Source of the DNA: Bradyrhizobium sp. NDS-1
GTDB lineage: Bacteria; Pseudomonadota; Alphaproteobacteria; Rhizobiales; Xanthobacteraceae
Direction of reading: 5' to 3'
Length of the DNA: 64,000 nt
NCBI RefSeq assembly: GCF_032918005.1
Contig: NZ_CP136628.1
Location: 5,131,501-5,195,500 of the forward strand
Shown in pieces: positions 35,797 to 63,166 of this stretch. Each line of letters begins with the position of its first letter. Within the stretch, counting starts at the first letter, position 1. The notes beneath the pieces were generated by a model. It saw nothing but the letters and a program-made list of their open reading frames with translations, searched no databases and was not told the origin of the DNA. The position numbers were made by a program, and so were the translations under genes.

Positions 35797-36156
35797 GTGG
35801 CGAATGCACTCGTCGTGCTGCAGGCCAGGCTTCAATCTCCCGTTGACGTGCCGGACGCCCCACTGACCGAGAGCCAGAACGACGACGCCAAGCTCGCGGC
35901 CCGAGTCCGTCAGGGTATAGGCCGCCCTGGGCGGATGATCGCTATAGAACTCGCGGCGCACGAGGCCGTGCTCCTCAAGTGTCTTTAGACGATCGGAGAG
36001 CACATTGGGCGCCATGCCGGGCAGACGCTCCTGAAGATCCTGGAAGCGCATGGTGCCGGGAAGCAAGTCCCGGACGATGAGGAGCGTCCAGCGCGCGCCG
36101 ACGATATCGAGCGTGCGGGCTACAGGACAAGATGCATCCAGACTGTTTCTTGCCAT
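35713..36156 (-). CDS. HxlR-family regulator (1 of 4)
   Basis: A 147-residue winged-helix protein: CPVARTLDIVGARWTLLIVRDLLPGTMRFQDLQERLPGMAPNVLSDRLKTLEEHGLVRR, with the conserved N-terminal Cys thought to sense aldehydes or oxidation in this family. A basic tail follows. The gene it once controlled may be the truncated NAD(P)-binding gene alongside. Upstream lie repeated TTTGGAC and a 7-bp inverted repeat. Confidence 0.88.
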   Translation of the reverse strand: MARNSLDASCPVARTLDIVGARWTLLIVRDLLPGTMRFQDLQERLPGMAPNVLSDRLKTLEEHGLVRREFYSDHPPRAAYTLTDSGRELGVVVLALGQWGVRHVNGRLKPGLQHDECIRHLQQASDALIRRPVRRVKSGGKSAAKAG

Positions 36157-38281: not shown

Positions 38282-38773
38282 CTATTGCCCGAACTTTGCT
38301 ATGCGCCATCTCACCAAGTCGTCGGCCCCCGGGCCCGCCTTTGGACGAACATCCCTCAAGCGGACGGTCGCGCCCGATTCCTCATCAACAATCTCCAACT
38401 TCACCCGTCGCCCTCCGTTCTTGTTAACGAATTCGAGTGGAGCTCCGGCATCTCCAGTCACTCCCCATTTATCACCGACCTGAGCAAGCGCCTGGATGAC
38501 GAGGATCATGTCCCAGCCTTTACCGGACAAGAAGTACTCGTAGCGATCGGGGCCGGTCCGATAGAGGCGCCGTCCGATCAATTCGTTTCGTTCGAGATGC
38601 TTCAGCCGATCAGAGAGCGTGGCATCGGTGATGCCGGTCGATTTTCTCAGATCATCGTACCTGCGCACGCCCAGCGATAAATCACGCAAGATCAAGAATG
38701 CCCAGCGGTCGCCAACGGCATCGAGTGCCCCGGCGATCGAGCACGCCATTCCTTCAAAGCTCTTCAATCGCAT
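38282..38773 (-). CDS. HxlR-family regulator (2 of 4), probable regulator of the AGTCACT palindrome
   Basis: A winged-helix protein of about 163 residues: [59 protein letters not shown]. The N-terminal Cys of the family is present. It is divergent from the molybdenum hydroxylase operon; between them sits the AGTCACT-N11-AGTGACT site that also precedes the alcohol dehydrogenase at 24859. The start MRLKSFEGM (38773) gives the usual family N-terminus; an in-frame ATG at 38824 is possible. Confidence 0.86.
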
Positions 38774-42636: not shown

Positions 42637-43164
42637 GACGGCACTGACCGGCTTGGCGACATTACGGTCGCCTGAAGTGCCGCCAAATCGCTTTCGGTTG
42701 AAAGACACGGCACCCGCGCCGGGGACGATCTCAACGTCCTCGAGCCGCAAAGGCCGGCCGTCCGCCCTTTTCAGCTTCGGATACTCAATCGGACGTCCCG
42801 CCGCGCGATCGAGAAACACGACTTGCGGGCCTTCCGGCTCTGCCAGCCAGTCGTCGCCCCATTTCTTCAGCGCGAGATAGGCCGGGAAGAAATCACGTCC
42901 TTTCTCGGTGAGGACGTATTCATATCGTCCGGCATGTTCAGGCAATCGGACACGAGCCATGATCCCAGCATCGACCAATTTTTTCAGCCGCGAACTCAGA
43001 ATGTTCGGCGCCACGCCGATGTAGAACTCGAATTCGTCGAAGCGCTTCACTCCGTAATACGCTTCGCGCAGGATCAAGATCGACCAGCGATCGCCAACAA
43101 CCTCCATAGCCCGAGCCATGGAGCATTCCTTGTTCGCAAGCCGACTTTGCTTCACACCGGACAT
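42616..43164 (-). CDS. HxlR-family regulator (3 of 4)
   Basis: About 182 residues: CSMARAMEVVGDRWSILILREAYYGVKRFDEFEFYIGVAPNILSSRLKKLVDAGIMAR, with a long C-terminal domain (FLDRAAGRPIEYPKLKR, RLEDVEIVPGAGA) like some catabolic HxlR proteins. ATG at 43164 has AAGGA at good spacing; the ATG two codons earlier has none. It is convergent with the molybdenum hydroxylase operon. Its targets are not obvious; the TctC-type gene upstream on the same strand is one candidate. Confidence 0.86.
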   Translation of the reverse strand: MSGVKQSRLANKECSMARAMEVVGDRWSILILREAYYGVKRFDEFEFYIGVAPNILSSRLKKLVDAGIMARVRLPEHAGRYEYVLTEKGRDFFPAYLALKKWGDDWLAEPEGPQVVFLDRAAGRPIEYPKLKRADGRPLRLEDVEIVPGAGAVSFNRKRFGGTSGDRNVAKPVSAVSRGKRK

Positions 43165-48419: not shown

Positions 48420-49433
48420 TTAAGCGATTGCGCGTGCCGGGACGGAACCCTTGCCCGCACCGTCGAGGAAGCCCGTCAGCCGCTGCCGGATGATACGTTC
48501 CGCATCGGCCATGATGCGATCGATCAGCTCCTTGACGGTCGGGATGTCATTGATCAGCCCCACGACCATGCCACAGCTCCAGGCTCCCGCATCCATGTCG
48601 CCATTTATCATCACCTTCGGGTAGACGCCGGCAACCTGGTCGAGAATGTCCTCGATCTTCAAGCTTGCCCCCTTCTCGCGCTCGATCTCGAGCAGCTCGT
48701 CGACACCCTTGTTCTTCAGGACGCGCTCGGTGTTCCGCAGCGCGCGCATGACAAGCACCGTGTCAAGCTCGGTCGCCTTGACCAGTGCCTGCTTCACGTT
48801 GTCATGGACAGGCGCCTCCTTGGTGGCGACGAAGCGAGTGCCCATGTTCATGCCGGCCGCCCCCATCGCAAGAGCCGCGACGAGGCTTCGCGCATCCGCC
48901 ATGCCGCCCGAGGCGACGAACGGAATCTTGAGCTCATCGGCGGCGCGAGGCAGCAGGATCATGTTCGGCATGTCGTCCTCGCCGGGATGACCGCCGCACT
49001 CGAAGCCATCGACGCTGACCGCGTCGCAGCCGATTCTTTCGGCCTTCAGCGAATGCCGGACCGAAGTGCACTTATGGATCACCTTGATGCCGGCCGCCTT
49101 CAGCGCCGGCATGTACTCTTCCGGGCTCCGGCCGGCAGTCTCGACCGCCTTGATGCCGCCTTCCTTGATCGCCGCGATATATTCGGGATAAGGCGGCGCG
49201 GTGAAGCTGGGCAGAAACGTGAGATTCACGCCAAAGGGCTTGTCTGTCATATCGCGGCATCGCGCGATTTCCTTGGCCAACAGCTCGGGCGTCTTTTGGG
49301 TCAGGCCGGTAATGAGGCCGAGACCGCCGGCGTTCGACACCGCGGCTGCGAGTTCGGCGAACCCGACATAGTGCATCCCGCCCTGGATAATCGGATGCTT
49401 GATTCCGAACAGTTCAGTAATCGCTGTTTTCAC
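48420..49433 (-). CDS. Nitronate monooxygenase (2-nitropropane dioxygenase family)
   Basis: A 337-residue FMN TIM barrel: GIKHPIIQGGMHYVGFAELAAAVSNAGGLG, VNLTFLP, DAVSVDGFECGGHPGEDD with the expected His, PFVASGGMADARSLVAALAMGAAGMNMGTRF. In acyl-CoA operons members of this family often have roles other than nitronate oxidation, perhaps as enoyl reductases. It is the last gene of a five-gene operon with an SDR, two acyl-CoA dehydrogenases and a thiolase. Confidence 0.88.
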   Translation of the reverse strand: MKTAITELFGIKHPIIQGGMHYVGFAELAAAVSNAGGLGLITGLTQKTPELLAKEIARCRDMTDKPFGVNLTFLPSFTAPPYPEYIAAIKEGGIKAVETAGRSPEEYMPALKAAGIKVIHKCTSVRHSLKAERIGCDAVSVDGFECGGHPGEDDMPNMILLPRAADELKIPFVASGGMADARSLVAALAMGAAGMNMGTRFVATKEAPVHDNVKQALVKATELDTVLVMRALRNTERVLKNKGVDELLEIEREKGASLKIEDILDQVAGVYPKVMINGDMDAGAWSCGMVVGLINDIPTVKELIDRIMADAERIIRQRLTGFLDGAGKGSVPARAIA

Positions 49434-49454: not shown

Positions 49455-50642
49455 TCAATGGATGATTTCGAAAAGACCCGCCGCACCCATGCCGCCGCCA
49501 ATGCACATGGTCACGACGCCGTACTTGGCCTTTCGTCGCCGCCCTTCGAGCAGGAGGTGGCCTGTGAGGCGGGCGCCGGTCATGCCATAGGGATGACCAA
49601 TCGCGATCGAGCCACCATTGACGTTGAGCTTGTTCGGATCGATGCCGAGCTTGTCCCGGCAATAGATCACCTGAACGGCATAAGCCTCATTGAGCTCCCA
49701 GAGATCGATGTCGTCGATCTTGAGGTTGTGGCGCTTCAGAAGCCGCGGGATCGCGACGACCGGGCCGATACCCATCTCATCCGGCTCGACGCCCGCGGCA
49801 ACGAAGCCTCGGAAGATACCGAGCGGCTTGAGTCCCTTCTTGGCCGCGATCTTGTCGCTCATGATCACGCATGCCGAAGCGCCGTCCGAAAGCTGGCTCG
49901 CATTGCCCGCACTGATGGTCTTGCCTTCGAACACCGGCTTGATCTTGGCGAGGCCATCTGCGGTCGTGTCGGGACGCGGACCTTCGTCCTTCGTGAGCGT
50001 CACTTGCTCGAAGGTGACCTGCTTGGTCTCCTTGTTGACGAGCGCCATTTTGGTCGTGATCGGGACGATTTCGTCGTCGAACCGACCACTTTGAAGAGCA
50101 GCTCCGACGCGGCGCTGGCTCTCCAGGCTGTACTCATCCTGCTTGTCACGGCCGATCTTGTAGCGCTCGGCGACCGTTTCCGCCGTCTCGAGCATCGACA
50201 TGTACATGTCCGGCTTCATCGCCATCAATTCATCGTCGACCATGTGAAACTTGTTCATATGCTCGTTCTGCACCAGGCTGATCGACTCGATGCCGCCTCC
50301 GATCGCGACGTCCACGCCGTCCAGCATCACGGAACGTGCCGCCACCGCGATCGCCTGCAGGCCAGAGGCGCATTGCCGATCGATCGTCGTCCCGGCGACG
50401 CTCACCGGCATGCCCGCACGGATCGCCCCCTTGCGGGCCACGTTCATCACCATGGTGCCTTGCTGCATGGCGCAGCCCATCACCACGTCTTCGACTTCAC
50501 CAGGGGCGATGCCGGCGCGCTTCACTGCCTCGGCCATGACGTGACCGGCCAGGGTCGGCCCCTCGGTATTGTTGAGGGACCCACGGTAAGCTTTGCCGAC
50601 CGCCGTGCGAGCGGTGGAAACGATTACTGCTTCAGTCGTCAT
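49455..50642 (-). CDS. Acetyl-CoA acyltransferase (thiolase)
   Basis: A 395-residue thiolase: EAVIVSTARTAVGKAYRG, catalytic Cys in TIDRQCASGLQAIAVAA, GGIESISLVQ, NVNGGSIAIGHPYGMTGARLTGHLL with the His, and C-terminal VTMCIGGGMGAAGLFEI with the second Cys. It cleaves 3-oxoacyl-CoA to acetyl-CoA. AGAGAGG lies before the start at 50642. It lies 13 bases downstream of the dehydrogenase gene. Confidence 0.94.
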   Translation of the reverse strand: MTTEAVIVSTARTAVGKAYRGSLNNTEGPTLAGHVMAEAVKRAGIAPGEVEDVVMGCAMQQGTMVMNVARKGAIRAGMPVSVAGTTIDRQCASGLQAIAVAARSVMLDGVDVAIGGGIESISLVQNEHMNKFHMVDDELMAMKPDMYMSMLETAETVAERYKIGRDKQDEYSLESQRRVGAALQSGRFDDEIVPITTKMALVNKETKQVTFEQVTLTKDEGPRPDTTADGLAKIKPVFEGKTISAGNASQLSDGASACVIMSDKIAAKKGLKPLGIFRGFVAAGVEPDEMGIGPVVAIPRLLKRHNLKIDDIDLWELNEAYAVQVIYCRDKLGIDPNKLNVNGGSIAIGHPYGMTGARLTGHLLLEGRRRKAKYGVVTMCIGGGMGAAGLFEIIH

Positions 50643-50655
50643 ATTGCCTCTCTGC

Positions 50656-51786
50656 TTACGCTGCCGCGTCGAGCTGCGCGTAACGCAGCACATGGAACGC
50701 GGGATCGCCGAACTGGATGTTGATGGAGGAGATACGCTTGAAATAATGTCCGACGTTCAGCTCGTCGGTCATTCCCATGCCGCCGTGAAGCTGCACCGCC
50801 TGGTCGGCGACGAACTTGCCGGCATAACCAATCTTCGACTTGGCGCCCGAGGCAAGCCGCGGAAGCCCCGCATCGCCGGCGGCGAGGCTGAGGTTGAGAT
50901 GTTGCATCAGGGAGAGCGCCTCCTGATGCGCGATGAACATGTCGACCATCCTATGCTGCAGCACCTGGAAGGAGCCGATGGTCGTGCCAAACTGCTTGCG
51001 GGTCTTGGAATATTCCAGTGTGGCGGAATTCAGCTCGCCAATGGCGCCGACGGCCTCCGCGCAGAGCGCCCCGATGGCGCGGTCGCGACACGCTTCAAGT
51101 GCCGCAACGCCCTCGCCTTCCTTTCCCAGCAGTTGTCCGCGGACCTCGCGCATGCGGATCTCCGCGGCGCGTCGGCCGTCGATCGTCTTGAAGCTTTGAA
51201 GATCGACACCGGCGACGCGACGGTCGACCACGAAAAGGCTGACGCCGTGCCGGTCGTTGTCGCAGCCGGAGGTCCGCGCCGACACGATCAAATAATCCGC
51301 CCAGGGCGCGGCGATCACTGCGGTCTTCTCGCCGCTCAGAACGTAGTCGCGTCCGTCTCGCCGTGCCGTTGTCGTGACATTGGCCAGATCGAAACGGGAT
51401 TTCTTCTCCGTCCAGGCCAGCGCCCAGATCTTCGTGCCGTCGATAATGCCAGGGATGAACTCCTGCTTTTGCTCGGCGGTGCCCGCGGATTCGATCAAAC
51501 CACCTGCCAGCACCACCGTCTCGACGAAGGGCTCGACGACGAGGTGACGGCCGAACTCCTGCATGATGATCATGGTCGACAAAGGACCGCCGCCGAGACC
51601 GCCTGCATCCTCGGAGAATGGCGCAGCGAGCAGACCGAGTTCGGCGAAAGCCTCCCACTGCTTCCGGCTGAGACCCTCTTCACTCGCCAGGATCTTGCGC
51701 CGCTTATCGAAATCGTACTGATCGCGCAGCACGCGCTGGACGCTGGATCGCAGCAATTCCTGCTCTTCCGTGAACTGGATGTCCAT
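50656..51786 (-). CDS. Acyl-CoA dehydrogenase (first of two)
   Basis: A 376-residue FAD enzyme: MDIQFTEEQELLRSSVQRVLRDQYDF, WAFAELGLLAAPFSEDAGGLGG-like substrate domain, and C-terminal FGTTIGSFQVLQHRMVDMFIAHQEA and QLHGGMGMTDELNVGHYFKR. The conserved catalytic Glu of ordinary medium-chain enzymes is not at the usual place, as in the alpha chains of heteromeric ACADs (for example steroid or aromatic side-chain enzymes). Paired with the next gene, it may form a heteromer (inference). Confidence 0.9.
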   Translation of the reverse strand: MDIQFTEEQELLRSSVQRVLRDQYDFDKRRKILASEEGLSRKQWEAFAELGLLAAPFSEDAGGLGGGPLSTMIIMQEFGRHLVVEPFVETVVLAGGLIESAGTAEQKQEFIPGIIDGTKIWALAWTEKKSRFDLANVTTTARRDGRDYVLSGEKTAVIAAPWADYLIVSARTSGCDNDRHGVSLFVVDRRVAGVDLQSFKTIDGRRAAEIRMREVRGQLLGKEGEGVAALEACRDRAIGALCAEAVGAIGELNSATLEYSKTRKQFGTTIGSFQVLQHRMVDMFIAHQEALSLMQHLNLSLAAGDAGLPRLASGAKSKIGYAGKFVADQAVQLHGGMGMTDELNVGHYFKRISSINIQFGDPAFHVLRYAQLDAAA

Positions 51787-51809: not shown

Positions 51810-52991
<1,182 letters not shown>

Positions 52992-53003: not shown

Positions 53004-53741
53004 TTACCACTTCTCGCCGAAAGGACGAATTTCCAGTTCGAACGTCCACGCGCTCCTGGGCTGCTGGTAGAGCTGCCAGTAGGACGTTGCCACGGAGGAC
53101 GGAGGCATCAAGGCATCCGGATCGTCGAGTGCGGTGGGGCCGAGCGCTTCCAGCCGACGTTGCCGCACCCACTCGGTGTCCACGCCTGAATCGATGATGA
53201 GATGAGCGACGTGGATGTTCTGGGGCCCCAACTCACGCGCCATGGCCTGCGCCACCGCGCGCAAGCCGAACTTCGCACTTGCAAAGGCCGCGTAGCCGGA
53301 GCCGCCGCGGAGCGACGCCGTCGCGCCTGTGAAGAAGATATTGCCGCCTCCGCGCGGCAACATCAGCTTCGCCGCCTCGCGGCCGGCCAGGAATCCGGAA
53401 TAGCAAGCCATCTCCCAAACCTTGCGGAAGACGCGCTCCGTCGTTTCGAGGATCGGAAAATTGACGTTGGCGCCGATATTGAAGATGCACGCTTCCAGGG
53501 GCGCGTGCTTGTCGGCATCGCCGAGGAAGGAGATGATCTCATCTTCCTTCCGCGCATCGAGCGAGCGGGCATGGATCTCGCCGCCGGAAGCCTCGATCTC
53601 CTTGACGAGCGGCGCCAGCTTGTCGCCGTTACGGCGACCCGCGAAAACCGTGAACCCTTCCGAGGCGAACTTCTTTGCGATCTCGCCGCCGATGAAGTCA
53701 CCCGCGCCGATCACGGCCACGGTTGCGTTTCTCTTCTGCAC
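53004..53741 (-). CDS. SDR-family protein with Phe in place of the catalytic Tyr
   Basis: A 245-residue SDR fold: VAVIGAGDFIGGEIAKKFASEGFTVFAGRRN, IFFTGATASLRGGSGYAAFASAKFGLRAVAQAMARELGPQNIHV. The classical YxxxK reads F-A-S-A-K, and the usual NNAG is replaced by FNIGAN. Lys is kept. This divergent subgroup is common in acyl-CoA operons and may reduce through another route or bind without classical catalysis. GTG start at 53741. First gene of the 53.7-48.4 kb operon, behind the GTTC-N7-GAAC promoter. Confidence 0.85.
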   Translation of the reverse strand: MQKRNATVAVIGAGDFIGGEIAKKFASEGFTVFAGRRNGDKLAPLVKEIEASGGEIHARSLDARKEDEIISFLGDADKHAPLEACIFNIGANVNFPILETTERVFRKVWEMACYSGFLAGREAAKLMLPRGGGNIFFTGATASLRGGSGYAAFASAKFGLRAVAQAMARELGPQNIHVAHLIIDSGVDTEWVRQRRLEALGPTALDDPDALMPPSSVATSYWQLYQQPRSAWTFELEIRPFGEKW

Positions 53742-53834: not shown

Positions 53835-53863
53835 ACATAACGTTCTTTTTTAGAACTCGTCAA
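53835..53863 (-). promoter_or_regulatory. Promoter with GTTC-N7-GAAC operator for the acyl-CoA operon
   Basis: On the minus strand: -35 TTGACG (53858-53863), 17-base spacer holding the inverted repeat GTTC-N7-GAAC (53842-53856), then -10 TTATGT (53835-53840). It lies about 95 bases before the SDR start. An identical 23-base block recurs at 58901-58923 before another operon, and a close variant occurs before the HCCA isomerase gene. Confidence 0.7.
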
Positions 53864-54119
53864 TCGATATTTGGGCCGGTCCTCCTCGAAACGACGCTTG
53901 CTCGCGACGCAGGACAGTCTCGCTCACGAGAACCGAGAGGCGCAGTCACACGTCCGCGCGAGTCGCGGCTTTTGCGTCGACCGCACTCGCACCGATGGAC
54001 CGCTTCGCAACGCAGTTCGACGAAGCAGAGCGCACATATTGCAGTTTCGATGAGCGAGCGAGGAAACCGCTCGCAATCACCAGCGGCCACCTTGGGCCAA
54101 GCCGGTCTTTTGGTGGATC

Positions 54120-54749
54120 TTAGGCCGTCGCAGATTGGAGTTTCGATTGCTCGACAATCGATTCCTCCACGTCCCGAAGCTGGTCCTTTCCGAAAAACAT
54201 CTCCTTCCCGACAAAGAACGTCGGCGAGCCAAACGCTCCGCGGCTTACCGCGTCGTTCGTCAGATCGATCAGCCTCTTCTTCACGTCGTCTTGCTGGGCG
54301 CGCTTCGCCAACCTGTCAATATTGACGCCGGAAGCGACGAACGCGGTCCGGAACACCTCCGGATCGTCCATCTTCTTCGGCTCTTCCCACATATGATGAT
54401 AGGCCGCCCTGAAATAGGGCTTGAACATCCCCTCCAATTGCGCGGCAACGGCGCACCGCATCAACATGAGCGTATTGACCGGGAAAAAGGGGTTCGAACG
54501 AAATTTGGTTACGTTATGCCGGCGAATGAACCGCTCCGTCTCGAGCGCCTGGTACTCGGGCTTGTTCTTGATGCCACGAAGGGAGTCGAAGGGCGACATG
54601 TTGCCGGTCGCCTTGTAGATGCCGCCAAGAAGAACCGGAACGTACTCGAACTTGGCGCCGGTGCGCTGCTCGATGCCAGAAATGGCGATCTCGGCCAGAT
54701 AAGCGTTCGGGCTGCCGAAATCGAACATGAACTCTACTTTCGGGGTCAT
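54120..54749 (-). CDS. 2-hydroxychromene-2-carboxylate isomerase/DsbA-like thioredoxin-fold protein
   Basis: A 209-residue protein of the kappa-class GST/HCCA isomerase family: MFDFGSPNAYLAE (active-site Ser near residue 13), PVLLGGIYKATGN, NTLMLMRCAVAAQ, GAFGSPTFFVGKEMFFGKDQLRDVEE. It probably uses glutathione in isomerising ring-fission products, or has another aromatic pathway role. It is transcribed alone from a near-consensus promoter overlapping the GTTC-N7-GAAC operator and is divergent from HxlR 4. Confidence 0.85.
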   Translation of the reverse strand: MTPKVEFMFDFGSPNAYLAEIAISGIEQRTGAKFEYVPVLLGGIYKATGNMSPFDSLRGIKNKPEYQALETERFIRRHNVTKFRSNPFFPVNTLMLMRCAVAAQLEGMFKPYFRAAYHHMWEEPKKMDDPEVFRTAFVASGVNIDRLAKRAQQDDVKKRLIDLTNDAVSRGAFGSPTFFVGKEMFFGKDQLRDVEESIVEQSKLQSATA

Positions 54750-54796
54750 ATCGGCGTTCTCCGGACAACTTAATGATGGTTGAGCTGGCCCATGAG

Positions 54797-54823
54797 ATTA
54801 TAGTTCCTTTTTCGAACTGTCAA
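54797..54823 (-). promoter_or_regulatory. Promoter with GTTC-N7-GAAC operator for the HCCA isomerase gene
   Basis: Minus-strand -35 TTGACA (54818-54823) and TATAAT (54797-54802) with a 15-base spacer that carries GTTC-N7-GAAC (54803-54817). The leader to the start codon would be about 40 bases. The spacer is shorter than the ideal 17, but the boxes are near-consensus. It lies beside HxlR 4. Confidence 0.7.
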
Positions 54824-54862
54824 ACCTACCATGCGCATACCGGGCCAGTTTCCCTGAGGGTA

Positions 54863-54891
54863 TTGTTCGAAGTTCAGTACCTATCTAGAAT
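54863..54891 (+). promoter_or_regulatory. Promoter of HxlR regulator 4
   Basis: TTGTTC (54863-54868), 17-base spacer, TAGAAT (54886-54891). GTTC occurs at 54865 and again at 54873, which may be half-sites of the GTTC-N7-GAAC operator, allowing autoregulation. Confidence 0.5.
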
Positions 54892-54949
54892 GCGGCAAAC
54901 TATCGTTATCCCCCGGATTCGGGAGAACGGTCGGTATTTGGAGACCGCG

Positions 54950-55468
54950 ATGAAATGGAAAGAACTTGAGGAAGAGCCATGCTCAATGGCCCGAACCATT
55001 GGGGTCATTGGCGATCGATGGACCCTGCTTATCCTGCGCGAATGTTTTCTGCGCACCCGCCGCTTCGAAGGTTTTCAGTCTGCACTGGGAATTACGCGCC
55101 ATCTGCTCGCCGAACGGCTGAAGAAGCTCGTTCGGCAAGGCATTCTTCGTCGGATTCCCTATCAAGAGTCGCCTAAACGTCACGAGTACATCCTGACCCA
55201 GAAGGGGTTGGATCTCTATCCCATCATGATGGCGATCGTGCATTGGGGCGATACTCACATGGTGGACGAACGCGGCCGGCCCCTGCTGCACCAGCACCGC
55301 AATTGCGGGAAGGACTTCGATCCCGTCATGGTGTGCTCCGAGTGCGGCGAACCGGTTCTAGCCAAAGAGGTTCACACGCATGCGGGCCCTGGCGCCGGAC
55401 GGCCCCTCGCAGGGAACGCAGCGGAAGGGCCTGCGCCGAAAGCCAAGGCGCGACGCAAGGCGGCCTGA
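54950..55468 (+). CDS. HxlR-family regulator (4 of 4), probable regulator of the GTTC-N7-GAAC regulon
   Basis: About 172 residues: CSMARTIGVIGDRWTLLILRECFLRTRRFEGFQSALGITRHLLAERLKKLVRQGILRR, the conserved N-terminal Cys of the family, and a C-terminal Cys-containing region (HRNCGKDFDPVMVCSECGEPV) with two CxxC-like pairs that could bind a metal. ATG at 54950 has GGAG upstream. It lies in the centre of three transcription units bearing the same operator and is the obvious candidate to bind it. Confidence 0.87.
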   Translation: MKWKELEEEPCSMARTIGVIGDRWTLLILRECFLRTRRFEGFQSALGITRHLLAERLKKLVRQGILRRIPYQESPKRHEYILTQKGLDLYPIMMAIVHWGDTHMVDERGRPLLHQHRNCGKDFDPVMVCSECGEPVLAKEVHTHAGPGAGRPLAGNAAEGPAPKAKARRKAA

Positions 55469-55585
55469 GAGCGCTCCGCGCGGCAGCTCTGCCGTCCTGC
55501 GAGAGGTTGCGGCGTAGTCGGCTCTCCGCGGCTACGATGAGCCCTTCGTCTCGATCTCCCATGAAGCGATCAAGCAGCAACACGC

Positions 55586-57406
55586 TCAAACCCGGATTAC
55601 GCCTCGGCTCGGGTCGGAACTGTAGAGAGCTTCGACATGGTCCGACCGGTGTTTCAGAACGGCACGTTGGTTGACGTACGCCTTGTCGGTAATTTCGCCC
55701 GCAGCCATCGAGGGCGGCTCATTGAGCAGCAAGAATGCGCCGACGTTCTCGCTGCTACCGACGGTCTGGTTGTATTCCTGGAAGCGGTCCTTCAGGAATT
55801 GCACGACGCGGTCATCGCGGTTGAGGTCTGCAGACGGCTGCGCCGCGATCTGGGCGGCTTCCGTCGGGTTGAGCCAGCAAAGCAGCCCGCACCATTCGCG
55901 GTTCTCGCCTGCAACCACGATGTCTGACAGCACGCCGCGCGCCGCCGCCAGGATCGCAGCCCGCATGTTTCCGATCGATACCCAAGTCCCGTTGGCGAGC
56001 TTGAAGTTTTCGGAGATCCTGCCTGTGAAGCGAAGCCCCGCCTCCGGCTTTTCCGGGTCCATGAAGGAGACAGTATCGCCGATACGATAGAAGCCCTCTT
56101 CATCGAAGGCCATCTTCGTCAGATCCGGTCTTCCGAGGTAGCCCGGCGTGACGTTGGGACCTTTGACCCTGACCTCGTAAGTATCGGAAACGGGGAGCAG
56201 TTTGAGCTGTAAACCGGGAGCCGGAAGGCCGATCTCCCCGGGACGGTCTGTGGCCCAATGGGTCGTACTGATCGTTGGAGCGGTTTCCGTCGTGCCGTAT
56301 CCCGACATGACGGGGATCTGCCGGCCCGTGATCGACGACATCAACCGGTAAAGCCGCTCGAGCGTGTTCTGCGAGATGGCCGCGCCGGCGTAACTCAGCC
56401 GGTCCAACCGCTTCAATATGCTTGCGCCCAACTCGGGATCCTTCTCGATCGCATCGCATAGGAAATTATACCCGGCAGGCACATTGAACATGGCAGTCGG
56501 TGAAATCTCCTTCAGATTCAGGAGCGTTTTGTGGAAGAGCTGAGGTAGAGGCCGGCCATCATCGATATAGAGCGTTCCGCCATTCTTCAGTATGCCATGC
56601 AGAATGACGTTGCTTCCCATCGTGTGGTGCCAGGGCATCCACTCAACCTGGACCGGTGCCTCGGACGGCGCTACGAGCAGGCTGCCCATCTGCAGAGAGC
56701 TTGCCATCATGCGGTGGGTGTTCAAGACCCCCTTCGGAAGGCCTGTCGAGCCTGACGTGAAGAGAATTTTTGCGACAGCATCGCAAGATACCGCATTCGA
56801 CGCGCGTTCGAAGCCCTCGTAGCCGTCCCGCTCTTTCATCAGGTCCGAATACGGTACCGTGTCCGGTGCACCGTCGACGCTGATCCAGGTGGCGGCTCCG
56901 AGTTCGGGAATGGAGCGGCCAGCGGAGAAGGCCTGTCCGCTCTGCACGAAGACGAACTTGGGACGCAGCACCTCTGCGATGTCCTTCAAGCGGGAAAGGC
57001 CGCCGGGCATCAAGGTGTAGTTCGGCGATACCGGCGCAAGGATTACGCCGATCGACATTGCGGCGAAGGAAATCATCGCGTTCTCGATCGAGTTTCCGGA
57101 CAGGATGGCGAGGCTGTCCCCAGGCTTGGCCCCCATTTCGATCAGGCTTTGACCAACCGCCCGAACCAGAGCCCACGCGCGACCATAGGTGATCTCGTCC
57201 CACTCACCGCTTGAATTGCGTTGAGCCAGGAAGATACGATTCGGAGCCGCTTTCGCCCAGGTCGGGAGAAAATCCGTAATGCGCCAATCGCAATCTCCCA
57301 GCTCGATCGGCGAACTCAGGATGAGCGTACCGTCGTCCCGACGCTGCAGTGAGACCTCTTTGGGCGCGAAGACAGGTGTATTCGTTGACATTGAAGATGA
57401 TCCCAT
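55586..57406 (-). CDS. Feruloyl-CoA synthase-like AMP-dependent acid-CoA ligase
   Basis: A 606-residue adenylating enzyme: ILFTSGSTGLPKGVLNTHRMM, WMPWHHTMGSNVILHGIL, SGYGTTETAPTIS, FTGRISENFKLANGTWVSIGNMRA, and C-terminal DKAYVNQRAVLKHR containing the Lys region. The MPWHH and ENFKL motifs match bacterial feruloyl-CoA synthases, so an aromatic or phenylpropanoid acid is a likely substrate. It lies downstream of the LivK-type binding protein and is probably co-transcribed from the same operator-bearing promoter. Confidence 0.85.
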   Translation of the reverse strand: MGSSSMSTNTPVFAPKEVSLQRRDDGTLILSSPIELGDCDWRITDFLPTWAKAAPNRIFLAQRNSSGEWDEITYGRAWALVRAVGQSLIEMGAKPGDSLAILSGNSIENAMISFAAMSIGVILAPVSPNYTLMPGGLSRLKDIAEVLRPKFVFVQSGQAFSAGRSIPELGAATWISVDGAPDTVPYSDLMKERDGYEGFERASNAVSCDAVAKILFTSGSTGLPKGVLNTHRMMASSLQMGSLLVAPSEAPVQVEWMPWHHTMGSNVILHGILKNGGTLYIDDGRPLPQLFHKTLLNLKEISPTAMFNVPAGYNFLCDAIEKDPELGASILKRLDRLSYAGAAISQNTLERLYRLMSSITGRQIPVMSGYGTTETAPTISTTHWATDRPGEIGLPAPGLQLKLLPVSDTYEVRVKGPNVTPGYLGRPDLTKMAFDEEGFYRIGDTVSFMDPEKPEAGLRFTGRISENFKLANGTWVSIGNMRAAILAAARGVLSDIVVAGENREWCGLLCWLNPTEAAQIAAQPSADLNRDDRVVQFLKDRFQEYNQTVGSSENVGAFLLLNEPPSMAAGEITDKAYVNQRAVLKHRSDHVEALYSSDPSRGVIRV

Positions 57407-57555
57407 GATTTACCGCAGGCCGTCCCGGCACGCTCGCGTGTGATCCGGCTTCTGATTGCCGCCAACCTCACGAAACTCGTGCGGGCGACTTGCCTAAGGA
57501 ACTCGGGCAGCGCATTTGATCACGCGCTCCCTTGCAGTTTTCCTGCCCGAGACCG

Positions 57556-58755
57556 CTACTCGGACTTCGCGTCGAGCACGTCTCCGAACAATTTGTAGCT
57601 CGTGCCGGTCCAGCGCTGCAGCCTCATTTGAGTCCACATCATGTTCACGTTTTCGCTGGTGTTGACCTCGATCCCCGGCAGCGCGACGGGGACGATTACG
57701 CTCTTCAGATTCTTTGCTTGCGCCAGGATGTTCTTGCGGGACAGATCGTTGCCGCATTGTTTCAGTATTCGCTCGAGCAGAATGCCCTGCTGATATCCGA
57801 CCGCGTAGGTCCCGTTGCTGATGTCGGCGCCGGGTAGATACTTCTCGAAGAAGTTTCGATAATCCCGCAGACCGGGATCGTCCTTCCACGCCTCGTCCCC
57901 AACGTCCTTGGTGATCGTGCCTGCGATCACGCCAATCGACTTGTCGAGCCCGGCCGGCGCGAGCGTCCCGCCAACAGATGCGGAAGGAAAGTTGATGATG
58001 ATGGTCGCCTTCCATCCGATCACCGAGGCCTGCCTGATCGCCTGCGCCGCAAACTTCGGTGTCCCGGCGATCACGAGAGCCTCGGCTCCTGAACTCTTCA
58101 GGTTCGTGATCTGCGAGTCGATCGTCGGCTCGGTCACCTCGTAAGCGGCAGTCACGACCTTTCGATCGAAATCGCTGCCGAGATACGCCTTGAACGCATT
58201 GACGTAGTCTTTGCCGAGATCGTCGTTCTGATAGAGAATTGCGTACTTCGCGCTAGGAAGCACTTTGGTGAGATACTTGGCGTAGATCTTCCCTTCGGTA
58301 TCGTAACTCACGATACCGGTCGTCATCAGGGGATAGTTCTCGACGTCCGAGAACTTGGATGCACCACTGACGATCGCGATGCTGGGCACTCCCTTTGCCC
58401 TGAGATACTTCGCCGTGGCCGAGACGCCGGGCGTACCTAGCTGGCCGTACATGAAGGAGATTTCATCGCTCTCGACCAGCTTGCGCACGTGCTCCACCGC
58501 CTTGGGTGGGCTGTATGAGTCATCGTAGGCGATGTAGTTGATCTTGCGCCCGTTGACGCCGCCTCGCTCGTTCAGCGATTGGATATAGGCGATAAGACCC
58601 TTGCCAATGAGCCCGATCGATGACGCCGGTCCGCTGAAGGGAAAAACCCCACCAATCTTGATCTCGGTATCGGAAATGCCTGGCTCTTCCGCAGCGGAGG
58701 CCGAACCGCTCAGAAGTACAGCGAGGGCTATCGCAATTTTCCATTTGGACATCAT
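57556..58755 (-). CDS. ABC transporter substrate-binding protein, branched-chain amino acid type (paralogue)
   Basis: A 399-residue protein. Signal peptide MSKWKIAIALAVLLSGSASA, then IKIGGVFPFSGPASSIGLIGKG, DDSYSPPKAVEHVRKLVE and YAILYQNDDLGKDYV, all very similar in motif order to the protein at 29405. ATG at 58755 has GGAGG seven bases upstream. No Liv permease genes are near. Given the adjacent feruloyl-CoA synthase-like gene, an aromatic acid may be bound (inference). Confidence 0.88.
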   Translation of the reverse strand: MMSKWKIAIALAVLLSGSASAAEEPGISDTEIKIGGVFPFSGPASSIGLIGKGLIAYIQSLNERGGVNGRKINYIAYDDSYSPPKAVEHVRKLVESDEISFMYGQLGTPGVSATAKYLRAKGVPSIAIVSGASKFSDVENYPLMTTGIVSYDTEGKIYAKYLTKVLPSAKYAILYQNDDLGKDYVNAFKAYLGSDFDRKVVTAAYEVTEPTIDSQITNLKSSGAEALVIAGTPKFAAQAIRQASVIGWKATIIINFPSASVGGTLAPAGLDKSIGVIAGTITKDVGDEAWKDDPGLRDYRNFFEKYLPGADISNGTYAVGYQQGILLERILKQCGNDLSRKNILAQAKNLKSVIVPVALPGIEVNTSENVNMMWTQMRLQRWTGTSYKLFGDVLDAKSE

Positions 58756-58894
58756 CAACCGTCCTCCCCCATGCGTGCCATAGCTGGCACGGAACTGTCT
58801 CTTGTTTGTCTTCCGCTGTGCGATCTCCTGACGACATCGTCGTTCAGAATCGCAGGCCGAAGCAGCCCTTTTTGTCGCTATTGGCTTTTCTTCA

Positions 58895-58923
58895 ACCTAC
58901 CGTTCTTTTTTAGAACTCGTCAA
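58895..58923 (-). promoter_or_regulatory. GTTC-N7-GAAC operator and promoter for the binding protein/ligase operon
   Basis: Minus-strand TTGACG (58918-58923) followed by the inverted repeat GTTC-N7-GAAC (58902-58916), identical over 23 bases to the site at 53841-53863. The -10 here is weaker (GTAGGT, 58895-58900). It lies about 145 bases before the binding-protein start. Confidence 0.65.
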
Positions 58924-59439: not shown

Positions 59440-61689
59440 TCACGCGAACGTGACGCTCTTGTTCAACGGCAGTTCGCGCACACGCTTTCCGGTAAGAGCG
59501 AAGATTGCGTTCGCGAGAGCAGGTGCGGCTGGCGGGACTGGCGGTTCGCCAATTCCCCGCACTTCTCCCCCAAGCTCCAATCCCTTGACGATGATTTCCG
59601 GCGCCTGATGGAACCTCATAGCCTCAAATACGTGAAAGTTCGTCTGGCTCGGCGCGAAGTTCTCGTATGTCAGCTCGCAGTTCATGGCGTGGCCCAAGGC
59701 CCATATGATGCCTCCCTGCACCTGCGCTTCGAAATTGATGGGATCCAGAATGCGCCCCACCTCACAAACGGCATACACTTTGTCGATCTTGATTCCTTGA
59801 GGCGTATCGCTGACGTCGACGATTTGGGCCATCGGCACGCCGAATGACACCGTCAGCGCTATCCCTCGGGCTCGCCGATCGTCGATCCGCGAGCCTTTCC
59901 AGCCGGAAATATCTCGCAAGGTATGCAAGACCGCTTTTGACGGCTCATGATTGCAGAGACGAATGAGCTCGGACATCGGATCCGCACCGGCGGCGTGGAT
60001 CAGTTCGTCCAAGAAGGAAGCATGGTGGAAGCCATTGCCGGACGCTCCGACAGATCGCCACGGGCTGACTGGCACCATCTCCTTCGCCCGGTAACCTGTC
60101 ACACGGCAGTTCGGTATAGCGAAAGGTTGGTCCCAAATACCGTTGACACTGGAGACGTCGGGGCCGGGAGGAAGGGGCGCCTGCAGACGGTTGAACCAGG
60201 AGGCGCCCATCGATTGCCCAGCGACATCGATGTCCATGCTCTCGACCTTGCCGTCGCGAACCGTACCTTTCGCGCGCGAGAGCTGGATCGGGCGCGGATA
60301 GTCGTGCGCCATGTTCTCCTCGCGGCTCCAGATCATCTTGACCGGAACGCCTTCCATGGCTATCGCGAGCTCGATCGCCTGTAGCGCGTAAGTGTCGTCG
60401 AGGCGCGCTCCGAAGCTGCCGCCGATCGGCTGAGCGTGCACGTAAACCTTCTCTTCCGGCAGTCGGGTCAGCTTCGCCGCATGCCCCTGGAGGAACACCG
60501 GGATCTGCGTTCCCGTCCAGATGTCGAGCCGTTCCTTCGTATAGAGTACAACCGCATTCATCGGCTCGAGTGGGGCGTGGGCCAAGTACGGCGTCCGATA
60601 CTCCGCCTCAACGGGCTTGGACGCGCCGGCGAACGCCTTCTCGACGTCGCCGTCATTGCGGAGCCGGCTATCCTGCAGGTCTTTGGAGAACGAATTCTCC
60701 AGCACCTTCCACATTCCGGCCGAATCGGCTGGATAAGGAGGATCGTTCCATTCGATCTTGATGGCGGCCGCGGCCCGAAAAGCTCTCCACGTGTTGTCGG
60801 CGATGACGCCTACACCGTCTTTGATCGGGACGATCTTCTTGACGCCCCTCATCTTCTCCGCGCTGGAAGCGTCATATCGTTTGATCGTGCCTCCCATGCC
60901 CGGATTGGCCCGGACGGTGGCGTACACCATTCGGTCCAGACGAACATCGATCCCATACTGCTGGATACCCGTGGACTTCGCGACCATATCGATCCGGCGC
61001 ATCTTCTTGCCGATGTAGCGCCACTCCTGTTCCGGTCTGAGCGTGACATCGGCAATGGGCGCAAGCAGCGCGGCCTCGACGGCCAGCTCCGCGTAACTGA
61101 TGGACTTGCCGTCAGGCAGGATGACCTGACCGTCCTTGGTTTTCAGTTGCGATCGGGACACTCCCGCCCTCTTGGCGGCCGCCTCCTTCAAAGTCTCTCG
61201 CGCGACCGCTCCCGCCAAACGGAGTTTATGATAACCGTCGGGTACCGTGGACGAACCGCCGGTGATCTGCATACCCAGCACACGGCTCAACATTTCGCCG
61301 CCTCCCCGCGCCCCGCGCGCCATCATGCCATCGTCGATCGTAGAGAACGGCAGGCTGTCGTCCATGACCCGGCTGTTGAAGTAGGCCGGACTTGGCGGAC
61401 CGGGATGGATGCGAACCTTATGCGGATCGACGTCGAGCTCTTCGGCGATCAGATGAGCTTGAATGGAATACGAGCCTTGCCCCTTATCGGCTCGCGGAGT
61501 GATGAGCGTGACGCCCTTTGCGTCGATGCGGACATACGGCGTGATCGCGGCCTCGCCCGGCTTGAGGTCCTTGAGCAGCGGATTGAGAGGCTCCTTGCGC
61601 AATTGGTAGTAGCCGAACGCGACGCCGCCGGCGATCGCCGCGGAGCCGATCAAAAACGTGCGTCTTGCAATCGTCTTGAGCCGAGCCAC
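59440..61689 (-). CDS. Molybdopterin-binding large subunit, isoquinoline 1-oxidoreductase (IorB) type
   Basis: A 749-residue protein with a twin-Arg-like leader (MARLKTIARRTFLIGSAAIAGG), so it is probably exported folded. Xanthine dehydrogenase family motifs: GQGSYSIQAHLIAEEL, GGSFGARLDDTYALQAIELA, VSPWRSVGASGNGFHHASF, and near the end VRGIGEPPVPPAAPALANAIF with the catalytic Glu. The two-gene organisation with an IorA-type small subunit and no FAD subunit marks the periplasmic class. GTG start one base after the small-subunit stop. Substrate unknown, perhaps an N-heterocycle or aldehyde. Confidence 0.9.
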   Translation of the reverse strand: MARLKTIARRTFLIGSAAIAGGVAFGYYQLRKEPLNPLLKDLKPGEAAITPYVRIDAKGVTLITPRADKGQGSYSIQAHLIAEELDVDPHKVRIHPGPPSPAYFNSRVMDDSLPFSTIDDGMMARGARGGGEMLSRVLGMQITGGSSTVPDGYHKLRLAGAVARETLKEAAAKRAGVSRSQLKTKDGQVILPDGKSISYAELAVEAALLAPIADVTLRPEQEWRYIGKKMRRIDMVAKSTGIQQYGIDVRLDRMVYATVRANPGMGGTIKRYDASSAEKMRGVKKIVPIKDGVGVIADNTWRAFRAAAAIKIEWNDPPYPADSAGMWKVLENSFSKDLQDSRLRNDGDVEKAFAGASKPVEAEYRTPYLAHAPLEPMNAVVLYTKERLDIWTGTQIPVFLQGHAAKLTRLPEEKVYVHAQPIGGSFGARLDDTYALQAIELAIAMEGVPVKMIWSREENMAHDYPRPIQLSRAKGTVRDGKVESMDIDVAGQSMGASWFNRLQAPLPPGPDVSSVNGIWDQPFAIPNCRVTGYRAKEMVPVSPWRSVGASGNGFHHASFLDELIHAAGADPMSELIRLCNHEPSKAVLHTLRDISGWKGSRIDDRRARGIALTVSFGVPMAQIVDVSDTPQGIKIDKVYAVCEVGRILDPINFEAQVQGGIIWALGHAMNCELTYENFAPSQTNFHVFEAMRFHQAPEIIVKGLELGGEVRGIGEPPVPPAAPALANAIFALTGKRVRELPLNKSVTFA

Positions 61690-61690
61690 G

Positions 61691-62149
61691 CTATTTCCCC
61701 TTCATCATCTGGGCTGCAGTTTTGACGGCGCTATGGATGCGGACATAAGTCCCGCATCGACAAAGATTTCCGTCCATGGCTTCGGCGATCTCGGCGTCCG
61801 AAGGATCGGGGGTTTTGGACAGCAGCGCCGCTGCAGTCATCATCTGGCCGGACTGACAATAACCGCACTGCGCGACCTGCTGCTCGATCCAGGCCTGTTG
61901 AACCACATGCAGGTTTCCGGGAGTCCCCAGACCCTCGATTGTCGTGATGCTGCCGCGAACCGCACCAGCGTTGATCGAGCAGGAGCGAACCGCCTCGCTG
62001 TCGATATGAACGGTGCACGCGCCACAAAGGCCCGCACCGCAACCATACTTCGGCCCCAAGATGCCAAGCTCGTCTCGAAGCACCCAAAGGAGCGGCATTT
62101 CCGGTTCAACGTCCAGGTCGTGGCGCTTACCATTGACGGTCAAATGCAT
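61691..62149 (-). CDS. [2Fe-2S] small subunit of the IorAB-type oxidoreductase
   Basis: A 152-residue protein: [42 protein letters not shown] (first cluster), [16 protein letters not shown] and [10 protein letters not shown] (second cluster). AGGAG precedes the ATG at 62149. A longer frame upstream lacks support. Transfers electrons from the large subunit to a cytochrome or similar acceptor. Confidence 0.92.
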
Positions 62150-62335
62150 TGCGAATGCTCCTGTAGCTGCGAAAGACGGCGAACAACGATCACCGGCCTC
62201 TCCGAGGGCTGCGGCCGGCCGGTTCCGGTGCGCTGGACTTGGCACACATCCCGCACTCTCGCTTCATTGATGAATGAACGGCCGCGCAGAGATCGGCAGG
62301 GCTTCGAGAAGGCGGCATTACTTTCCTCGTCCGCC

Positions 62336-62481: not shown

Positions 62482-62967
62482 CTACCTGAGTTTCCGCCGC
62501 CCTCCTCGCCCAGAAGTGGCGGCCTGCTCCGACCTGACTTTGGGCAATGGCGCATCGATGACCCGCTTCATGAGCTCGCGGAGATGGCCCGCCTCACGCA
62601 CCCCGAACGCCGTTTCGAATCCAGCCCTCGCCTTTTGCCAGGCCGGATAGGCCGCGAGCAGCATCTCCTGCCCGCGATCCGTGATGGCAACCTCCCGCAC
62701 CCGCCGATCCTCCTCGCTCACCTCGATCTTGAGGAGGCCATCGCGTTCCAGAGGCCGGAGATTATGGCCAACGGTCGCTCGATCCATCGTCATGATGTTC
62801 GCCAGGCTGGCCATCGTCATCGGGCCTTCCGAGGCGAGGAAGCCCAGCAGGCTATACTGGGTTGACTTGAGCCCGGTGCCGGCAAGACAGAGATCGTAAT
62901 AGCGCGATATGCGCCGAGCCGCCCGCCTGAGCTGGCTGCAAGTGCAGTTCTGAGGAAAATCACTCAT
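62482..62967 (-). CDS. MarR-family regulator
   Basis: About 161 residues: CSQLRRAARRISRYYDLCLAGTGLKSTQYSLLGFLASEGPMTMASLANIMTMDRATVGHNLRPLERDGLLKI with winged helix and EEDRRVREVAITDRGQ. Three Cys residues near the N-terminus (NCTCSQLRR, DLCLAG) could sense oxidants. MSDFPQN at 62967 is preferred over the ATG at 63039. It lies upstream of IorAB on the same strand and divergent from the ferredoxin-domain gene, so it may control either. Confidence 0.88.
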   Translation of the reverse strand: MSDFPQNCTCSQLRRAARRISRYYDLCLAGTGLKSTQYSLLGFLASEGPMTMASLANIMTMDRATVGHNLRPLERDGLLKIEVSEEDRRVREVAITDRGQEMLLAAYPAWQKARAGFETAFGVREAGHLRELMKRVIDAPLPKVRSEQAATSGRGGRRKLR

Positions 62968-63166
62968 CGCAATCGAACGTCGTGCCAAGTTCAAGCTTCC
63001 TCGGTCGTTTGGGTCGGTGCTCCAGACCCTTAGCACCAAATCGACAGGCAGACTTCAATTGAAATGGCAGTTTGCCTGCATTGATGTCTAATGATAGTCT
63101 CATATGCCCGTAATTGCATGATACACCTCACAAGGGCGCACGCAGCCTTCGCATCAGGAGACCAGC

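Follow-up and report, generated by a model that had tools for sequence, protein, structure and literature searches.

A predicted HxlR regulon of seven promoters for CoA-dependent carboxylic acid breakdown in Bradyrhizobium sp. NDS-1

A stretch of 64,000 nucleotides of Bradyrhizobium sp. NDS-1 DNA (contig NZ_CP136628.1, positions 5,131,501 to 5,195,500; hereafter the window, numbered from its first letter) was analysed around hxlR 4, a gene for an HxlR-type winged-helix regulator. The host sequence is a single contig of 7,645,890 bp, and genome-wide counts refer to these 7.65 Mb. An earlier note on this DNA had proposed that HxlR 4 controls three operons through the inverted repeat GTTC-N7-GAAC. 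The sites, their promoter geometry and conservation, their linkage to HxlR genes and their association with the recognition helix were established here by computation. They point to a larger regulon, predicted to comprise seven promoters at three loci with two near-identical HxlR proteins, and a probability of about 0.85 is assigned to the reading that HxlR 4 and its paralogue are dimeric repressors of all seven through this palindrome.

The hxlR 4 locus and its promoter-linked palindromes

HxlR 4 carries an HxlR-type winged-helix domain (PF01638; Foldseek matches 2f2e, HypR, HxlR and YodB). The regulator gene, its own promoter and the three operator-bearing promoters of the window are:

54950..55468, plus strand: hxlR 4, PF01638 regulator and proposed repressor, 172 aa (Pfam 82.5 bits, cut-off 20.8, scored on the longer open reading frame starting at 54773)
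54863..54891, plus strand: hxlR 4 promoter with a weak operator-like element, conserved in related upstream regions; -35 TTGTTC 54863-54868, 17-bp spacer, -10 TAGAAT 54886-54891, element GTACCTATCTAGAAT 54877-54891 overlapping the -10 box
53835..53863, minus strand: promoter of the short-chain dehydrogenase-acyl-CoA dehydrogenase-thiolase operon, from sequence, with seven such sites in the genome; -35 TTGACG 53863-53858, operator GTTCTAAAAAAGAAC 53856-53842, candidate -10 TTATGT 53840-53835, spacer 17 bp
54797..54823, minus strand: promoter of the DsbA-like/2-hydroxychromene-2-carboxylate isomerase gene, from sequence, with a conserved site in related hxlR upstream regions; -35 TTGACA 54823-54818, operator GTTCGAAAAAGGAAC 54817-54803, candidate -10 TATAAT 54802-54797
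58895..58923, minus strand: promoter of the binding protein-ligase operon, from sequence, with a Peripla_BP_6 gene at related loci; -35 TTGACG 58923-58918, operator GTTCTAAAAAAGAAC 58916-58902, weak -10 candidate GTAGGT 58900-58895

The hxlR 4 ATG at 54950 is preceded by GGAG, and Met1 and Trp3 of the frame that starts there are kept in 92/92 relatives; the longer frame from 54773 would overrun both operators. The proposed target genes in the window are:

54120..54749, minus strand: DsbA-like/2-hydroxychromene-2-carboxylate isomerase-like protein, divergent target (PF01323, E 3.4e-26; solved relatives 2imd and 3fz5)
53004..53741, minus strand: short-chain dehydrogenase, first gene of its target operon (PF00106)
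51810..52991, minus strand: PimC-like acyl-CoA dehydrogenase of the same operon (Pfam; best NCBIfam pimC_large, 485.6 bits, below the cut-off of 623.85)
50656..51786, minus strand: PimD-like acyl-CoA dehydrogenase of the same operon (Pfam; pimD_small, 368 bits, below the cut-off of 652.7)
49455..50693, minus strand: acetyl-CoA C-acyltransferase (thiolase) of the same operon (Pfam; NCBIfam TIGR01930, 429 bits, above the cut-off of 240.55)
48420..49433, minus strand: FabK/nitronate-monooxygenase-like flavoprotein (best NCBIfam TIGR03151, below cut-off), probably encoded by the last gene of the same operon
57556..58758, minus strand: periplasmic substrate-binding protein (Peripla_BP_6, PF13458), target, with a paralogue at the 1803177 site described below
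55586..57406, minus strand: AMP-forming acyl-CoA ligase, target (PF00501; NCBIfam PRK12582 subfamily, 809.2 bits, cut-off 777)

Upstream of the 58902 site, genes for a molybdopterin-binding subunit and a small [2Fe-2S]-like protein, the latter recognised from sequence only, lie at 59440-62245, with no exact GTTC-N7-GAAC ahead of them.

The same 23 bases stand at 53841-53863 and 58901-58923, and a close variant at 54801-54823, exactly as the earlier note had described. On the minus strand all three sites read TTGAC-(1 or 2 bases)-GTTC-N7-GAAC, that is a -35 box followed by the inverted repeat, in the order the note had given (TTGACGA-GTTCTAAAAAAGAAC at 53842 and 58902, TTGACA-GTTCGAAAAAGGAAC at 54803). 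The 15-bp palindrome thereby occupies the spacer between the TTGAC -35 box and a -10-like box, and the consensus of 59 sites of the type found at the short-chain dehydrogenase operon is TTGACGA-palindrome-gTTA..T.

Since the bare motif GTTC-N7-GAAC with at most one mismatch is found in the window at background level (25 observed, 26.5 expected), half-sites alone prove nothing. The pattern with an A/T-rich core, GTTCNWWWWWNGAAC, has 7 matches in the genome and none when reversed. With the core left free and the -35 box required, TTGACNNGTTCN7GAAC occurs 4 times and TTGACNGTTCN7GAAC 3 times, again with no match of the reversed controls, and the -35-linked and A/T-core searches return the same seven places: three in the window and four outside at 1803177, 3327701, 3331345 and 3345546 (genome coordinates, G000:C1). 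These seven promoter-linked sites form three loci, and each precedes a gene of the window set or a paralogue. A genome-wide search, which the earlier note had suggested, thus places the promoter-linked motif at these genes and their paralogues and does not find it widespread; co-control of the three window operons is supported. Across the genus, TTGACNNGTTCNWWWWWNGAAC was found in 53/146 genomes and its control pattern in none.

Conservation and extent of the regulon

Related loci were the best 80 of 103 HxlR 4 relatives from Bradyrhizobium, Afipia, Rhodopseudomonas and metagenome-assembled genomes; the nearest ones with a name belong to Bradyrhizobium. A set of 92 hxlR upstream regions comprised these 80 together with HxlR 4, its paralogue and ten taken from other genomes; not all are independent, some coming from the same or a near-identical genome (e.g. 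L065 and L143). The A/T-core palindrome lies at most 350 bp upstream of hxlR in 73/80 related loci, and the 80 loci (1.56 Mb) contain 180 such sites, against 0-1 in each of ten mononucleotide shuffles. With a free core, exact GTTC-N7-GAAC is found at -106 to -257 in 91/92 upstream regions, and with one mismatch in the last, L082. A full TTGAC stands ahead of 166/180 sites (69/73 beside hxlR, 60/68 and 37/39 at the other two positions), at an offset of -6 in 72/73 beside hxlR and of -7 in 59/68 and 37/39 elsewhere. The site direction is as in the window in 170/180. When 6 sites without clear direction were excluded, the genes downstream were the isomerase in 63/72, the ligase in 39/64 or a short-chain dehydrogenase in 22/64, and a Peripla_BP_6 binding protein after 35/38 oriented sites on the side of hxlR that corresponds to the binding protein-ligase operon. 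The FabK-like neighbour recurs at L028, L029, L036 and L083 among 12 related loci inspected.

The site is also selective among HxlR genes. The genome has 13 of them, and the palindrome lies near just two, those of HxlR 4 and its paralogue; for the other 11, none was found within about 1.5 kb (a stretch of about 3 kb examined for each). Three of the other HxlR domains lie in the window on the minus strand (35845-36105, 38462-38716 and 42838-43101), with Pro-Asn or Asp-Ala at positions 50-51 and no palindrome nearby. HxlR domains are widespread, being found in 14/14 control genomes. In a set of 146 genomes from the genus, 128/132 with an HxlR 4 relative (E <= 1e-30) contain the A/T-core motif, versus 3/14 without one (Fisher P 4e-11); the reversed control gives 0-4 matches per genome, so single motifs may be due to chance. 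In three of the apparent exceptions (G018, G051 and G128) the palindrome is present after all, its core containing G or C, and the fourth (G132) has only a distant HxlR 4 relative.

A second, weaker operator at hxlR's own promoter is new in this analysis. GT[AGT]C-N5-TAGAAT occurs in 84/92 related hxlR upstream regions, closer to the start codon than the strong site, and differs from GTTC-N7-GAAT by one mismatch in 79 of these and by none in 5; TAGAAT itself is found in about 1% of random 115-bp stretches from the same loci. In 85/85 occurrences counted the left half-site retains its G, T and C, although these lie outside both promoter boxes, and GTDCCNAWYTAGAAT occurs exactly twice in the genome, once ahead of each hxlR paralogue. 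Because a TTG-type -35 box stands 17 bp before TAGAAT, the element at 54877-54891 is read as a degraded operator on the hxlR promoter, and autorepression of hxlR through it is a probable prediction.

Outside the window, the 1803177 site precedes the gene for a Peripla_BP_6 protein, a paralogue of the window binding protein. A second locus (3318000-3354000; L012 and L013) holds paralogues of the isomerase, dehydrogenase and ligase, a near-identical HxlR and 3/7 sites. There, 3327701 precedes a DsbA-like isomerase gene followed by a CaiB-type CoA-transferase, 3331345 an AMP-forming ligase followed by a short-chain dehydrogenase and a flavin reductase, and 3345546 another AMP-forming ligase, with an old-yellow-enzyme gene further on and an enoyl-CoA hydratase-like gene (by look, not profile-scanned) also downstream; 10 proteins of the outside loci were profile-scanned. 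The second HxlR gene, at 3327046-3327558, adjoins the 3327701 site, is divergent from the isomerase gene and encodes a protein 87% identical to HxlR 4. At several of the 12 related loci inspected much of the gene set forms one cluster, relative to which the set appears to be split in this genome. The three window promoters of the earlier note are real but not the whole: with the four sites of two further loci the predicted regulon has seven promoters at three loci, and it also includes a second HxlR paralogue and the weaker site of hxlR itself (54877-54891).

The gene set comprises substrate-binding proteins, three AMP-forming ligases, short-chain dehydrogenases, an acyl-CoA dehydrogenase pair, a thiolase, a CoA-transferase and DsbA-like isomerases, which points to CoA-dependent breakdown of some carboxylic acid that is activated with CoA, dehydrogenated and cleaved by thiolysis. 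Sequence searches of NCBIfam and the PDB did not name the substrate; among 10 proteins, only the thiolase (TIGR01930, a generic subfamily) and the ligase (PRK12582) passed NCBIfam cut-offs. In regulons for ferulate or other hydroxycinnamates, the genes for feruloyl-CoA synthetase, hydratase-lyase and vanillin dehydrogenase occur together. A PRK12582-subfamily ligase is present here, and hydratase-lyase and vanillin dehydrogenase were not among the proteins scanned, no search having been aimed at them. No ring-cleavage enzyme was found among the genes scanned in the window and the outside loci. An aromatic or ferulate pathway, towards which the growth test proposed in the earlier note pointed, is unsupported.

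Pairing of operator and recognition helix

Ile48, Thr49, Arg50, His51, Leu52, Leu53, Arg56, Leu57, Lys58 and Lys59 are invariant in 92/92 relatives, and Arg at position 50 is found in 0/10 other aligned HxlRs of this genome. Distant relatives (38-68% identity) were collected by order- and class-level searches, which gave 57 places; 48 were used first and 8 later, and one, the second half of the tandem G402:C461 without upstream DNA of its own, was excluded. In the first 48, an exact palindrome lies at most 400 bp upstream in 15/16 with Arg50-His51 and in 0/32 without (P 1.5e-11; background 3.7% per 400 bp), and in all 56 in 16/18 versus 1/38 (P 6e-11). Operator and recognition helix remain paired down to about 41% protein identity. 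In 12/15 site-bearing Arg-His relatives there are two sites, separated by 23-35 bp, a layout that agrees with weak autorepression of hxlR. Around the 48 distant relatives the fetched DNA contained both a related short-chain dehydrogenase and the isomerase in 12, the isomerase in 16, and neither in most; the link to this chemistry therefore reaches beyond the genus and is not universal.

Several results weigh against this pairing and the regulon built on it. For a hold-out with the code (see below) fixed beforehand, a phylum-level search supplied 40 genes and then 12 more with initially excluded long frames, 52 in all; Bradyrhizobium genes, training-set genes, G520 (counted in the class set) and the second half of each of five tandem frames were left out, and L260 had only 171 bp of upstream DNA. 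Among the 40 genes the site was found in 3/6 with Arg-His versus 4/34 without (P 0.055, or 0.16 without one same-family relative), and among the 52 in 3/6 versus 4/46 (P 0.026), weaker than in the training set. Arg50-His51 alone therefore does not fix the operator sequence; two of the three Arg-His failures have a match with one mismatch (L211 at -43, L220 at -85). A tree of 98 rows built without the helix columns implies at least 9 changes of Arg-His and at least 12 of the site. Its resolution is poor, with one independent pair on supported branches, and it does not confirm independence. The -10 boxes are approximate, 10/180 sites depart from the common direction (4 reversed, 6 unclear), and the hxlR -10 element may be conserved in large part for its promoter role. 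Part of the genus-wide co-occurrence may stem from the several small or incomplete genomes among the 14 without a relative.

Other helices go with other palindromes. Upstream of Arg-Arg HxlR genes, GTCT-N7-AGAC was found in 5/5 (L161, L162, L175, L191 and L193), and of Arg-Thr genes, GTCC-N7-GGAC in 6/8 (L164, L169, L172, L183, L184 and L187); one further gene of each kind (L247 and L241, respectively) agrees. These pairs suggest, tentatively and with the odds somewhat against it, a readable DNA-recognition code in the HxlR/DUF24 family: a shared 15-bp palindrome, usually GTxy-N7, whose half-site would be set by residues 49-51 (Thr/Ala-Arg-His for GTTC, Ala-Arg-Arg for GTCT, Ser-Arg-Thr for GTCC), with the outer G becoming C where Arg/Lys50 is lost. 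The tests refuted the simplest version, in which the half-site depends on residue 51 by itself, and the association stands. A strict helix code was likewise rejected: 6/15 predictions were right among the 40 hold-out genes (GTTC 3/6, GTTT 1/2, GTCC 1/2, CTTC 1/5), 25 genes being without prediction, and two Ser-Arg-Pro genes carried GTTC. The 12 added genes gave 0/5, for a total of 6/20. For the 8 remaining class-level genes, which had likewise not been seen before the code was fixed and of which several are close to training rows, 4/5 predictions were right; a Pro-Arg-Ala gene, L245, carried GTTC twice. If such a code were true, operators of many unstudied HxlR regulators could be predicted from sequence.

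Adjacent pairs of HxlR matches share one frame of 312-346 aa at G980:C9, G950:C8, G994:C1, G1016:C4 and G402:C461, possibly encoding single-chain double HxlR proteins.

Mode of action and comparison with known systems

In the proposed mechanism each winged-helix HxlR dimer would sit on a 15-bp palindrome GTTC-N7-GAAC, with the recognition helix Ile48-Thr49-Arg50-His51 reading the GTTC half-sites. The palindrome lies in the spacer of about 15-17 bp between the -35 and -10 boxes of the seven promoters, where a bound dimer would exclude RNA polymerase; repression is most likely for this reason, and the anatomy supports the suggestion of the earlier note that a bound repressor would block polymerase. 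The dimer would be released by an inducer that is produced or imported along with the substrate, so that all seven promoters would be derepressed together, and the weaker copy on the -10 box of hxlR would give negative autoregulation. Binding, dimerisation, repression and autoregulation are what we infer for HxlR 4. Its role as the binder, also named in the note, is favoured by the site beside its orthologues, the absence of the site beside other HxlRs and the helix association.

Activation by HxlR 4 from the same site seems improbable to us. The founding member of the family, HxlR of Bacillus subtilis, is an activator whose binding rises on formaldehyde cross-linking (PMC7835342). In HxlR 4 and its relatives, however, the palindrome is enclosed in a spacer of about 15-17 bp next to near-consensus -35 boxes, a position from which a dimer should keep polymerase off the promoter, and residue 13 is Met (77), Leu (12), Val (2) or Ile (1) in 92/92, not the cross-linking Lys of the formaldehyde sensor. 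MerR-type activators that bind in the spacer use longer spacers, which also counts against activation.

About as improbable is a reading in which HxlR 4 is a redundant copy and the 3327046 paralogue does the regulating. The two are 87% identical with the same recognition helix, and a strong site and a weak own-promoter element occur at both; yet the HxlR 4 frame is intact, its promoter elements are conserved and many genomes hold a single match of the HxlR 4 protein. With two such near-identical proteins, deletion of HxlR 4 alone may have little effect. It is very unlikely that the palindrome is read by a different regulator, whether the product of the MarR gene at 62482-63039 or one of the 11 remaining HxlRs, with HxlR 4 a bystander. 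All of these have winged-helix domains, and the window contains three more HxlR genes, with a further one close to the second locus; but in a check made on the HxlR genes none of the 11 has a site within about 1.5 kb, and across genomes the site accompanies the HxlR 4 clade. Least likely of all is a conserved promoter spacer or alternative sigma-factor element without operator function, as would suit a palindrome standing between -35 and -10 boxes at target genes, against which speak the exactly symmetric half-sites, the variable offset from the -35 box (-6 or -7) and the other 15-bp palindromes of the distant Arg-Arg and Arg-Thr relatives (GTCT 5/5, GTCC 6/8).

Scattered acid-breakdown gene sets are very probably switched together by HxlR, in a protein-site pairing that is conserved beyond the genus. 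The regulon is new and well defined, and its regulator family is already known. A literature search, with most subscription papers outside its reach, found no paper describing the operator or the regulon. The analysis joins scattered 'acyl-CoA' genes and a regulator without a name into one defined regulon with operators and a predicted feedback loop, which can be used to find the substrate. To our knowledge, few HxlR-family regulators have known operators, and an operator tied to a recognition helix is a starting point for predicting others.

Several residues of HxlR 4 are candidate sensing or metal sites. Cys11, in the N-terminal helix, is kept in 92/92 relatives and also in 10/10 other aligned HxlRs of the genome, and does not discriminate a thiol-sensor type. 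Cys32, H114, H116, C119, C129 and C132 are each kept in 92/92, residues 114-132 forming an invariant C-terminal H-x-H-x2-C-x9-C-x2-C cluster. Cys32, C129 and C132 occur in 0/10 of the other aligned HxlRs, and L019 alone of these has His and Cys aligned with H116 and C119. The Cys cluster is absent in 5/15 site-bearing Arg-His distant relatives and is therefore not needed for the DNA sequence. The structure model of HxlR 4 has the family fold (mean pLDDT 73.7; block means 77 for residues 111-120 and 61-65 for 121-150) and is too uncertain to decide on a metal site.

The closest solved relatives, over most of the length and also by fold, are PA1607 (2f2e) and PA1374 (4gcv) of Pseudomonas aeruginosa, both deposited as putative factors; their alignments lack the CxxC/His cluster of HxlR 4. 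The thiol-based HxlR/DUF24 sensors YodB, HypR and QsrR share the fold. They have an N-terminal cysteine, and YodB and QsrR are repressors, but the genes under their control serve quinone or disulfide stress and do not form a CoA-dependent catabolic regulon. HxlR of B. subtilis (7bzd, 7bzg; DUF24/MarR superfamily) is of the same family, with the winged-helix fold and conserved cysteine 11; the match stops around residue 104 and does not reach the C-terminal His/Cys cluster, and its Lys13 has no equivalent in HxlR 4. It is described as a formaldehyde-responsive activator of hxlAB whose DNA binding is raised by cross-linking (PMC7835342). CouR of Rhodococcus jostii, a MarR protein, is reported to repress a CoA-dependent catabolic regulon and to be freed by an acyl-CoA (PMC4737184). 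In outline, the repression proposed for HxlR 4 would resemble that by CouR, which belongs to another family and pathway and for which release by acyl-CoA is a feature of its own.

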